This document shows positions 61,337-64,000 of a DNA stretch of 64,000 nt, in pieces. Below the pieces are notes generated by a model. It had not been told where the DNA came from. It did no database searches and was given only the letters and a program-made list of their open reading frames with translations. Position 1 is the first letter of the stretch, and every line of letters begins with the position of its first letter. The stretch covers positions 248,001 to 312,000 of the forward strand of contig JAAXCW010000002.1 in NCBI GenBank assembly GCA_013036095.1, read 5' to 3'. Source of the DNA: Vulcanimicrobiota bacterium (GTDB lineage Bacteria > Vulcanimicrobiota > Vulcanimicrobiia > Vulcanimicrobiales > Vulcanimicrobiaceae). Position numbers and translations under genes: made by a program.

Positions 61337-61407
61337 TCCCCGTTGGTGAAGTGGTATCATTCCTCACTCTGAATGAGGCGTCCGTGGTTCGAATCCATGA
61401 CGGGGAG
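61337..61407 (+). tRNA. tRNA-Gln(CTG)
   Basis: The acceptor stem TCCCCGT pairs with ACGGGGA, the anticodon arm is CCTCA-CTCTGAA-TGAGG with anticodon CTG, and the T-arm contains GGTTCGAATCC. Discriminator is G and the 3' CCA is not encoded. Three bases separate it from the next tRNA. Confidence 0.93.
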
Positions 61408-61410
61408 CGT

Positions 61411-61483
61411 GGCCCTATCGTCTAGAGGCCTAGGACGCCGCCCTCTCACGGCGGTAACACGGGTTCGAATCCCGTTGGGGCTA
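61411..61483 (+). tRNA. tRNA-Glu(CTC)
   Basis: Acceptor GGCCCTA pairs with TGGGGCT (two wobble pairs), the D-arm has the usual GTCTAGAGGCCTAGGAC, the anticodon arm is CCGCC-CTCTCAC-GGCGG with anticodon CTC, and the T-arm is CGGGTTCGAATCCCG. CCA is not encoded. It is followed by a strong terminator. Confidence 0.95.
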
Positions 61484-61488
61484 AGCTA

Positions 61489-61556: not shown

Positions 61557-61904
61557 TCATTTGACAACGTTGACCTTGAGCAGCATGCTCCCGTGACCGA
61601 TTCCGCAGTACACGGCGCAGCGCGCAATGAAACTGCCGAGCCGTTGAGGCGTCACCTCCACGCTCACCGGTTTGCTGCTGATAACGATAACATTGCTTAG
61701 ACCAATCCCCGGGATCGTAATTCCGTGCGTTCCCTGCGTCCCGACGAACACCAATTTCTCCGGCTGATGCAATTTGAGTGTTATCGTGCCCGGCGTGAAC
61801 GCGAAGTTTTTCGCATAAACCGTAATTGACTGTTCGCGCGCCATGGCCGGCGCGTCGAGGATGGATATGAGAGCAAGCGCAAGCGCTAAAGAAGTTATCT
61901 TCAT
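61557..61904 (-). CDS. Exported small cupredoxin with CuA motif
   Basis: A 115-residue exported protein starting at ATG 61904. After a signal peptide (MKITSLALALALISILDAPA) it is one cupredoxin domain resembling the soluble domain of cytochrome oxidase subunit II. The CuA ligand set is complete: His60 (GTHGITIPG), Cys96, Cys100, His104 and Met107 in CAVYCGIGHGSM. It has no transmembrane helices, so it is a free periplasmic or surface carrier. Its start overlaps the large heme/barrel gene (ATGA). It could take electrons from, or give them to, the second CuA on that protein. Confidence 0.85.
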   Translation of the reverse strand: MKITSLALALALISILDAPAMAREQSITVYAKNFAFTPGTITLKLHQPEKLVFVGTQGTHGITIPGIGLSNVIVISSKPVSVEVTPQRLGSFIARCAVYCGIGHGSMLLKVNVVK

Positions 61905-63445
61905 TGTGTCGTACCTTTCGATTCCGTAACGGTTATGGTAAGTGTCATGTTTGGATGCCCGGGACCGCACATAATCGCGCAGTGCAAAACATAGACCCCG
62001 GCTTTCTTCGGAGTTACGTTGACGATGACGCCTGCGCCCGGCTGCATCACGGTGAGCGGGATGCCAAGGTCTGCGGATTGCAAACCGTGCACGCCTTGGG
62101 CGCTAACGAGACGCACTCTCGCCATTTCACCCACGCGAAGTGCGATGGTGTTTGGCGTGAACTTCCAGTTCGATGCGGCAACGATAACTATTGGGTGAGT
62201 CGCTGCCGGTAAGGGCGTCGGACTCACCGCGGTGGCCGTAACAGCCGGATGAACCGCCGGCAGCGGTGTCGCGACGGCCAACTCGCTTACAGCCGGCTCG
62301 GCCACGTTTTGCAACGGCATCGTCCACCACAGCATGTAGCTAAACGTCGGCGATGTATGTTGTGCCATCGCCGACTCCAAATAGACATGCAGATACGGAA
62401 GCACGTGGTAAGCAAAATCGATATTCCCGCTCTGCGTCTGCGTGCCTAAGCCGTCGTTTTGGAACTCTTTGCGGAAGGCGATGAGTCCCTTGTCGCCGAC
62501 GGGTTCGTAGAGTTCGAGCGTTGCGGCGCTACTGCGCGCAGACCCCAGGGGATTACCCAGCACGTCCTGCCCGGCGTTGCTATCGAAGGCCGTTTGATAC
62601 ATCGCAAAGATGCCGGGAAAAGCGCCGACCGGATCCCGCTGGACGTAAGGTGTGAACGACGAATATTGATCGAAGCCGCCCTCAGCCAACGGGAACGAAC
62701 CTCGTGCGCCCATGAGGCCGTATTCGAGCGGTTGTTCCGGATCTGCGTGAGCCAAGCGCCACTGGAACGTCTTCTCAACATCCGGTGAGTACTTTCCGAT
62801 GCCGCTCAGGTCGCCGCCGTCGGCGAAATACCCGGCCTCGATATCTAGGGAGTTCTTTACGTAGGCGAACTTGGAGCCCCAGCGATTCCCGTCGTTCTGA
62901 TACGCGTGTTCGCCGACGACAATTTCAGGCGTCGCAAAACCGGCGATATCAAACCATTGGCTCAGCGGCGACGCGGTCGTTCCAGGCATTTTCCCGACAA
63001 AGAGATGTCCGTTGCGGTGAAAGAGGTTATTGAACGTAATCCAAGCCGTATCAATTCCTCCCGGTTGACCGTCCTGTACGATCCACTGCTGATAATGGAA
63101 GGTTGTGTTTGCATCAAACGCTCCGGCGGCATGCAGCGCGAGATTTCCAAACGCGGTTCTCGGCGAGCTCGTGTCTTGAGCATTGTGCGAAAAATTCGCG
63201 GTTTCACCAAGCCAGAACGGCGTCGAGCGGTGCAGCGTATGGAAGTCCAGTGCGGCGTAACCCGTGCGTTGAACGTAACGTCCATAAGAATTCAAGGCGG
63301 GAACCTGTGTATGACAAACGCTGCATTTCATTCCGTAGGCCTGGGCGAACGGCGGCATCGCGAACGCCGATACGGAGCCCATCAGCGTCAATGTCAAGGC
63401 GGCAACGATCCCGATAGCGGCGGATCTTGTACTGAAACATTTCAT
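61901..63445 (-). CDS. Exported c-heme, predicted beta-barrel and CuA cupredoxin fusion
   Basis: A 514-residue exported protein with three parts. After a signal peptide (1-29) comes a c-type heme site in FAQAYGMKCSVCHTQVPALN (Cys41, Cys44, His45), the start typical of heme-bearing barrel proteins of several phyla. Residues about 60-385 are rich in alternating aromatic strands (TAWITFNNLFHRNGHLFVG, YLHVYLESAMAQHT) and have no long helix, as in outer-membrane barrels. A Pro/Ala/Val linker leads to a C-terminal cupredoxin with all CuA ligands: His453, Cys489, Cys493, His497, Met500 (CAIMCGPGHPNM). No terminal oxidase subunit is nearby. Electron transfer across or at the outer membrane is inferred. 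Confidence 0.75.
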   Translation of the reverse strand: MKCFSTRSAAIGIVAALTLTLMGSVSAFAMPPFAQAYGMKCSVCHTQVPALNSYGRYVQRTGYAALDFHTLHRSTPFWLGETANFSHNAQDTSSPRTAFGNLALHAAGAFDANTTFHYQQWIVQDGQPGGIDTAWITFNNLFHRNGHLFVGKMPGTTASPLSQWFDIAGFATPEIVVGEHAYQNDGNRWGSKFAYVKNSLDIEAGYFADGGDLSGIGKYSPDVEKTFQWRLAHADPEQPLEYGLMGARGSFPLAEGGFDQYSSFTPYVQRDPVGAFPGIFAMYQTAFDSNAGQDVLGNPLGSARSSAATLELYEPVGDKGLIAFRKEFQNDGLGTQTQSGNIDFAYHVLPYLHVYLESAMAQHTSPTFSYMLWWTMPLQNVAEPAVSELAVATPLPAVHPAVTATAVSPTPLPAATHPIVIVAASNWKFTPNTIALRVGEMARVRLVSAQGVHGLQSADLGIPLTVMQPGAGVIVNVTPKKAGVYVLHCAIMCGPGHPNMTLTITVTESKGTTQ

Positions 63446-63945
63446 GAAGGTTTCCCCGAACGGTGCGAACGTTCCAGCTCGTTGAGCTGCTCGTCTGTGG
63501 GACAGGCGTGCTGAAAAGCAACGTGGCGCTTTTTGATGTACACGCGCAGGCGGTCCAGCAAATGATCCATCGTTCCATCGGCGAGCCGCTTGCCGATCAA
63601 TCGATCGAAGAGCCCGCCGGCTAGACCACCCGGGGGTTCGTACGTGCCTTCAAGAGAGAGAATCGAACCCTGAGATTGCGGACGAACCGTAGCGAGGCCG
63701 CGGAACGACGGGAACGCGGACCAGCGTGGCTGCCAGGAGAGTATGAGCGCATCGTGCCCGCGCACCGAGTCAGTCTTATCATCCACGAGTTCGCGTTGCG
63801 TATTCACGTTGACGTTGGTTGACGCGAGCGCTTTCACGCGCAACCGGGGCCTTTCGTCAAAAAAATCGGTGACGTACTCTATGACGCTACTGAACGGCGC
63901 CTCAACTGAGGTCGTGCGGAAAAGACTCGTAACGCGCGGCGCGAT
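63442..63945 (-). CDS. SRPBCC-family protein, start uncertain
   Basis: The minus-strand frame is open from 63945 down to a TGA at 63442 that overlaps the next gene (ATGA). Its sequence (VTSLFRTTSVEAPFSSVIEY, WQPRWSAFPSFRGLATVRPQ, GTYEPPGGLAGGLFDRLIG) fits the START/polyketide-cyclase fold that binds hydrophobic ligands. No ATG, GTG or TTG lies before residue 35 of this frame. TTG 63843 would remove the first strands, and ATG 63961 is in another frame. A sequencing error, a frameshift or a rare start (ATC 63945 after GAGAGTGAG) must explain it. It leads the CuA operon. Confidence 0.6.
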   Translation of the reverse strand: MAPRVTSLFRTTSVEAPFSSVIEYVTDFFDERPRLRVKALASTNVNVNTQRELVDDKTDSVRGHDALILSWQPRWSAFPSFRGLATVRPQSQGSILSLEGTYEPPGGLAGGLFDRLIGKRLADGTMDHLLDRLRVYIKKRHVAFQHACPTDEQLNELERSHRSGKPS

Positions 63946-63972
63946 AGATTCTCACTCTCATTTGAAGCGCGC

Positions 63973-63994
63973 TGTCAACATGCCCGATCGGGCA
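63973..63994 (-). promoter_or_regulatory. Palindrome and -35 box ahead of the CuA operon
   Basis: TGCCCGATCGGGCA (63981-63994) is a perfect 14-bp palindrome directly followed on the minus strand by TTGACA (63978-63973). The -10 is unclear. The arrangement suggests a regulated promoter for the SRPBCC-CuA genes, and the window ends here. Confidence 0.45.
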
Positions 63995-64000
63995 TTCTTT

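Follow-up and report, generated by a model that had tools for sequence, protein, structure and literature searches.

The route that electrons take through the periplasm once they leave a mono-heme outer-membrane porin is poorly settled, with carriers that differ between lineages. What, then, might an operon do that encodes two CuA centers without an oxidase, one of them fused to a c-type heme and a predicted β barrel? Such an operon lies near the end of a 64,000-nucleotide stretch of Vulcanimicrobiota DNA—the window, on which all positions below are numbered—within a 344 kb contig; the draft genome totals 2.58 Mb (completeness 97.0, contamination 6.6). On the minus strand, a 514-amino-acid cytochrome–porin–CuA fusion (61901..63445; ORF list, alignment with relatives, and AlphaFold2 model) is followed by a 115-amino-acid exported CuA protein (61557..61904), and the two genes are coupled, as first noted, by an ATGA overlap at 61904–61901. 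The initial annotation saw here an electron conduit with the small protein as its shuttle; domains, barrel prediction, and gene linkage support this in outline, with function and substrate as its conditional parts. We propose, with a probability of about 65%, that the large protein takes electrons in at the outer membrane, as a conduit in which CuA is the built-in acceptor and Fe(II) the most likely donor.

The large protein contains a single CxxCH, the heme c site CSVCH at residues 41–45 (63311..63325), near the N-terminus as initially annotated. AlphaFold2, run on 22 sequences that all came from the window and related loci, gave a model with 16 strands in residues 77–377 (62315..63217; model m9cd14593ff42), a disordered Pro/Ala/Thr-rich linker in residues 382–414 (62204..62302; predicted local distance difference test, pLDDT, <50), and a confident cupredoxin from residue 419 onward, for an overall pLDDT of 72.5. 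Foldseek comparison of this model with the Protein Data Bank (PDB) returned 308 matches at E ≤ 0.001; the best 50 of these 308 were all porins, led by a match at E 3e-11 and TMt 0.66. The barrel suspected in the initial annotation is thus recovered by structure prediction. A PDB search with a porin sequence profile gave no match. Porins with an even number of strands have both termini on the periplasmic side; with 16 strands, the heme segment and the CuA domain would therefore lie on the same, periplasmic side.

The heme-plus-barrel half has a described relative. Cyc2, the fused monoheme cytochrome–porin of iron oxidizers such as Acidithiobacillus and Mariprofundus, is defined by AXPXFAR[Q/K][T/Y], CXXCH, PXL, and a 16-stranded porin (Keffer et al., PMC8406198; this and the other papers cited are drawn on in excerpt). 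The large protein shares with Cyc2 a signal peptide (judged by eye, here and in the small protein), a single N-terminal CxxCH, A-x-P-x-F-A before the heme site, P-x-L four residues after it, and a 16-stranded porin, predicted here; the segment reads AMPPFAQAY-GMK-CSVCH-TQV-PAL. Within AMPPFAQAY, the A, P, F, A, and Y fit Cyc2, whereas Q and A replace R and Q/K; the R is also missing from two of six plasmid-borne Cyc2-type proteins (those of Acidithiobacillus and Polymorphobacter). BLASTP aligned the protein to a Cyc2-type protein from a Methylocystis plasmid at 44% over 55 amino acids, partly within the signal peptide. With the signal peptide excluded, hhalign comparison of a profile of 25 unfused Eremiobacterota relatives with the six plasmid proteins matched the heme segments at E 1.3e-13, with 45% identity over 38 columns.

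The segment is also conserved among relatives. We collected a first set of 41 loci from the best hits, 36 of which have the porin and a few of which have CuA only, so that its counts lean high; in it, a broad form of the Cyc2 motif occurred in 36 of 39 porin-family CxxCH proteins and in none of 16 other CxxCH proteins. A heme site near the N-terminus was kept in all 40 porin-family frames. These comparisons argue for a real relation to Cyc2 at the heme segment, and because the strict motif is absent we call the protein Cyc2-like rather than Cyc2. The initial claim that no described system has this build accordingly divides: Cyc2 is a relative of the heme and barrel (PMC8406198), and the CuA tether still appears new. 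A keyword-level literature survey that included excerpts of PMC10654088, with subscription papers and preprints outside it, found no cytochrome–porin described as fused to a CuA or other cupredoxin domain. A Cyc2-like gene had been reported earlier in one Eremiobacterota genome, MAG 15 (PMC8357290). What remains new is the tethered CuA, together with CuA as a frequent periplasmic partner of a cytochrome–porin across the phylum.

Both CuA assignments follow from complete ligand sets, as initially annotated. The ligands are H453, C489, C493, H497, and M500 in the tethered domain (residues 419–508, 61922..62191; pLDDT ~90) and H60, C96, C100, H104, and M107 in the small protein. Both sets fit H-x35-C-x3-C-x3-H-x2-M, one residue longer between the first His and the first Cys than the published H-x34-C-x3-C-x3-H-x2-M (PMC6189053). 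With a spacer of 34–36, the motif occurred in 56 of the 57 CuA-family genes at the 41 first-set loci and in none of the 727 others there. In sequence searches of the PDB, both proteins hit CuA domains from oxidase subunit II (the small protein at E 2e-5, the large one at E 1e-6). The AlphaFold2 model of the small protein (pLDDT 85.9) had subunit II of the Thermus ba3 oxidase as its top Foldseek match, with an rmsd of 1.2 over 90 columns; 4hcf, an oxidase-free cupredoxin, scores nearly as high, so the case for CuA rests on the ligand set, not the fold. By sequence, both are predicted CuA cupredoxins with the full canonical ligand set.

Comparison with known CuA proteins sets these two apart. 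Subunit II proteins, above all that of Thermus thermophilus ba3, have the same fold and all five side-chain ligands, whereas the small protein lacks a membrane anchor and its operon a COX1 partner; the position midway between the cysteines is Val or Ile here and Glu, Gln, or Gly in the ba3-type CoxB rows. PmoD/AmoD likewise carries a CuA-type center outside oxidases and N2O reductase, but the PmoD center spans two chains and uses another ligand set, whereas each domain here has the full canonical set (PMC6189053).

A cytochrome–porin match at E ≤ 1e-60 was present in 66 of 149 phylum genomes, the genome studied here included, and was mostly untethered; a match through both porin and CuA parts occurred in three (this genome, G003, and G007). 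The fusion therefore recurs intact in other genomes, where the initial annotation had advised looking for it, and this genome holds two copies, 83% identical and on different contigs. The ten relatives that carry names all belong to Eremiobacterota/Vulcanimicrobiota. In the porin tree, the CuA-tethered proteins form one clade (100/98), and a cytochrome-c-tethered protein, L049_01, is its sister (100/100 for the five). The CuA tree places tethered CuA within the stand-alone CuA family and apart from the ba3-type CoxB set (98/80); support for the tethered domains as a group is lower (90/53), and too few columns leave many forks open. By these trees, the fusion to CuA appears to have happened once, and tethered CuA descends from the stand-alone family. 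The operon's own small CuA protein was rejected as the copy that became fused: it sits in a separate clade of the CuA tree (100/100). A direct fusion of the usual neighbors in their usual order is likewise not supported, because the fusion reads porin then CuA, whereas at unfused first-set porins the CuA gene came first 25 times and the porin gene first four times.

The C-terminal position is occupied by other redox domains as well. Cytochrome c is the last domain of L049_01 (L038 in the scan, the same contig), L077_07, and L078_11 (Pfam E 9e-14, 2e-14, and 3e-16, respectively), which stand in separate places of the porin tree; the more distant L082_09 has a cytochrome c domain (E 4e-11) ahead of a further tail. 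The strongest argument for reading the C-terminal CuA as an electron acceptor is that cytochrome c takes the same position in sister proteins. The repeated attachment of redox domains at this end—CuA once, and cytochrome c—argues for electron transfer over copper storage.

Gene neighborhoods pair the porin with likely electron carriers. A stand-alone CuA gene adjoins the porin on the same strand at 27 of the 36 first-set loci. At 38 further loci picked on the porin alone (L094–L131), a same-strand CuA gene lies within 400 nt in 25 and a triheme cytochrome c within 1.5 kb in 17; 35 have one or both, and three have neither, among them L103, at a contig end. Ten of the 38 have the triheme cytochrome and no CuA gene within 400 nt. 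The gene caller misses some genes, and at least one CuA (L058) was detected only by a separate search. At the six plasmid Cyc2-type loci the partners differ: c-type cytochrome genes lie near all of them and an annotated CuA gene at none, in plasmid gene tables that are incomplete. Triheme c-type cytochromes were also seen near the cytochrome–porin at L067, L070, L073, and L074, and at 18 of the 38 second-set loci; that of L070, the one scanned, has three Cytochrom_C repeats.

Oxidase genes follow a different pattern in this genome and in its relatives. As the initial annotation held, the operon has no catalytic subunit: the genome's three COX1 genes all lie away from it, and the possibility of an oxidase locus at the window edge was rejected, since reading of the ORFs revealed no COX1 or COX3 in the 8 kb past 64000. 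These three genes are aa3-like, scoring 653–673 bits to the CtaD model (cut-off 670.75; one just over, two just under), and the one locus inspected also encodes a bc complex and a subunit II of its own. The description "without an oxidase" holds for this operon and fails to extend to its relatives: at 12 of the 36 first-set loci a ba3-type COX1, accompanied by its CuA subunit, stands six genes or fewer from the porin, and seven of the 38 second-set stretches contain a COX1 of this family. The L051 COX1 matches Thermus ba3 subunit I over its whole length at E 2e-114 (one other oxidase, 7deg, follows at E 8e-98, the rest at E 8e-12 or worse). The intact fusion of G007 (L048) is one of the 12 loci; that of G003 (L047) has no COX1 near it on its 10.7 kb contig. 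Across 59 relatives, 33 have both porin and ba3-type oxidase, seven the porin only, three the oxidase only, and 16 neither (Fisher P 1e-6, uncorrected for relatedness).

We envisage the following path. The Cyc2-homologous mono-heme segment would sit in or under the 16-stranded porin, and the flexible linker would suspend the CuA domain from the barrel's periplasmic end. A reduced external donor—Fe(II), alone or complexed, is the likeliest—would reduce the heme, and the electrons would then move through the tethered CuA and the small CuA protein to the CuA center of a terminal oxidase. That oxidase would probably be the neighboring ba3-type enzyme in many relatives; here, with no ba3-type COX1 found, the chain would end at an aa3 oxidase—one of the three aa3-like enzymes—or another oxidase. 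An Omp85 gene is present in this genome, and the cultivated relative Vulcanimicrobium has an outer membrane (PMC9758169).

The CuA proteins would thereby fill the place of rusticyanin and cytochrome c in the Acidithiobacillus pathway. Rusticyanin is a mononuclear blue-copper protein. It is the periplasmic copper carrier between cytochrome–porin and oxidase, the role proposed for CuA here, and is encoded by a separate gene of the rus operon (cyc2-cyc1-cup-coxBACD-rus; PMC10654088), whereas CuA here is also tethered to the porin.

The energetics would suit some donors better than others. CuA centers have potentials of ~250 mV. Mariprofundus Cyc2 lies at 208 mV, and Fe(II)/Fe(III) near 0 ± 100 mV at pH 7 and at 770 mV at pH 2 (PMC8406198). 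At these potentials the path would be downhill for near-neutral or organic-complexed Fe(II); for uncomplexed Fe(II) in strong acid it would not be. The fullest form of the proposal—a one-piece uptake protein passing electrons from porin heme to tethered CuA, small CuA carrier, and CuA oxidase, as the first CuA periplasmic wire of metal oxidation, spread through Eremiobacterota with a C-terminal slot that swaps CuA and cytochrome c—is put forward tentatively, at slightly less than even odds.

Several observations weigh against the electron-intake reading. The heme region is poorly modeled (pLDDT <50 for residues 40–73), so the model does not give the heme-to-CuA geometry. Two positions deviate from the strict upstream Cyc2 motif, and the barrel alone, compared by profile with the Cyc2 barrel, reached a probability of only 5.9; the two barrel sequences are not recognizably alike. 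The ba3-type oxidase is missing from seven of 40 porin-bearing relatives, and the porin from three of 36 oxidase-bearing ones. Neither RuBisCO nor a ba3-type COX1 was found in this genome, which makes lithotrophic growth doubtful and a mixotrophic role the most that could be expected.

The alternative that survives best, though we think it unlikely, keeps the conduit and changes either the donor (to Mn(II), Cu(I), humics, or another extracellular reductant) or the purpose, with Fe(II) oxidized for detoxification and no gain of energy. That no RuBisCO was found here fits this, as does an operon with no gene recognized as iron-specific. In G007, the one locus where this was looked at, a gene for a VIT1-family (Fe/Mn) transporter separates the fusion from the ba3-type oxidase (L048:9324-10025), which is also consistent with this reading. 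Against these stands the resemblance of the heme segment to Cyc2, whose oxidation of iron has been demonstrated in other bacteria (PMC8406198).

Copper handling is improbable. On this account the CuA domain and the small protein would deliver copper, admitted by the porin, to the CuA site of an oxidase; in its favor, PmoD is a CuA-type protein of unsettled role (PMC6189053), and ba3-type oxidases do lie near many relatives. It sits poorly with the cytochrome c domains that replace the CuA tether in sister proteins, the heme site kept in every porin-family frame, and the second-set loci that pair the porin with a triheme cytochrome and no nearby CuA gene; in this operon, moreover, reading of the genes, with no profile search, recognized no SCO1. 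A similarly small chance attaches to outward flow, in which the conduit would hand electrons to acceptors outside the cell. Porin–cytochrome conduits can in principle run in both directions, but many loci here pair the porin with an O2-reducing oxidase and with CuA proteins, which feed oxidases. That the two genes are normal subunit II genes of an oxidase, moved out of its operon, is very improbable, and plain subunit II identity is rejected as far as sequence tells: both domains match COX2 profiles but score only 28.5 and 26.6 bits against the CoxB cut-off of 147.7, show no anchor beyond the signal peptide (by eye), separate from the ba3-type CoxB set in the CuA tree, and coexist with an aa3-like locus that has its own subunit II.

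The operon extends beyond the electron-intake candidate and its partner. Upstream of the fusion lies an SRPBCC-type (Polyketide_cyc2-like) gene (63442..63843, minus strand; weak Pfam match, E 8e-4, below cut-off), so that three genes run consecutively with an ATGA overlap at each junction, here at 63445–63442. The span first assigned, 61557–63945, contains both CuA genes and takes in this third gene as well. The SRPBCC gene has its only usual start codon at 63843, and its homology extends upstream to ~63930; between 63843 and 63945 it has no in-frame ATG where the homologue of the genome's other copy (C1) starts. An SRPBCC relative occurs within six genes of the porin at 10 of the 36 first-set loci. 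For the small CuA gene we prefer the ATG at 61904; the ORF tool lists a longer frame from a GTG at 61970. Just downstream of the operon, on the opposite strand, tRNA-Gln and tRNA-Glu genes stand in tandem (61337–61484).

Further copies and variants were seen alongside. The same run of small CuA, fusion, SRPBCC, two M61 peptidase, and transporter-like genes occurs twice in this genome (window 61557–64000, continued in L004 to 20000; and L046, C1). G005 holds a broken fusion copy (L045:4448-5413, L076) with heme segment and CuA domain in different frames and most of the barrel missing; the small CuA gene beside it is open. A second, distant cytochrome–porin, whose barrel is followed by a cytochrome c domain and then a further tail, is encoded in this genome (L082:8697-10490, C3) and in G002 (L081). 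The L081 gene lines up with genes for a multicopper oxidase, an ArsP-type permease, and SCO1; L082 carries genes of the same clusters, and the row is perhaps another metal-oxidizing set. L049/L050 (L038/L039) appear to be one contig stretch binned into both G010 and G044, which belong to different families (RRmetagenome_bin23, bin22); one of the two bins is probably contaminated.

With the acceptor attached to the porin, the step from heme to acceptor could be followed within one molecule. If the electron-intake reading is true, it would extend CuA beyond oxidases, N2O reductase, and PmoD. The phylum is regarded as relying chiefly on organic matter, trace gases, and light; extracellular electron uptake, perhaps with Fe(II) oxidation, would then be common in this little-cultivated soil lineage.

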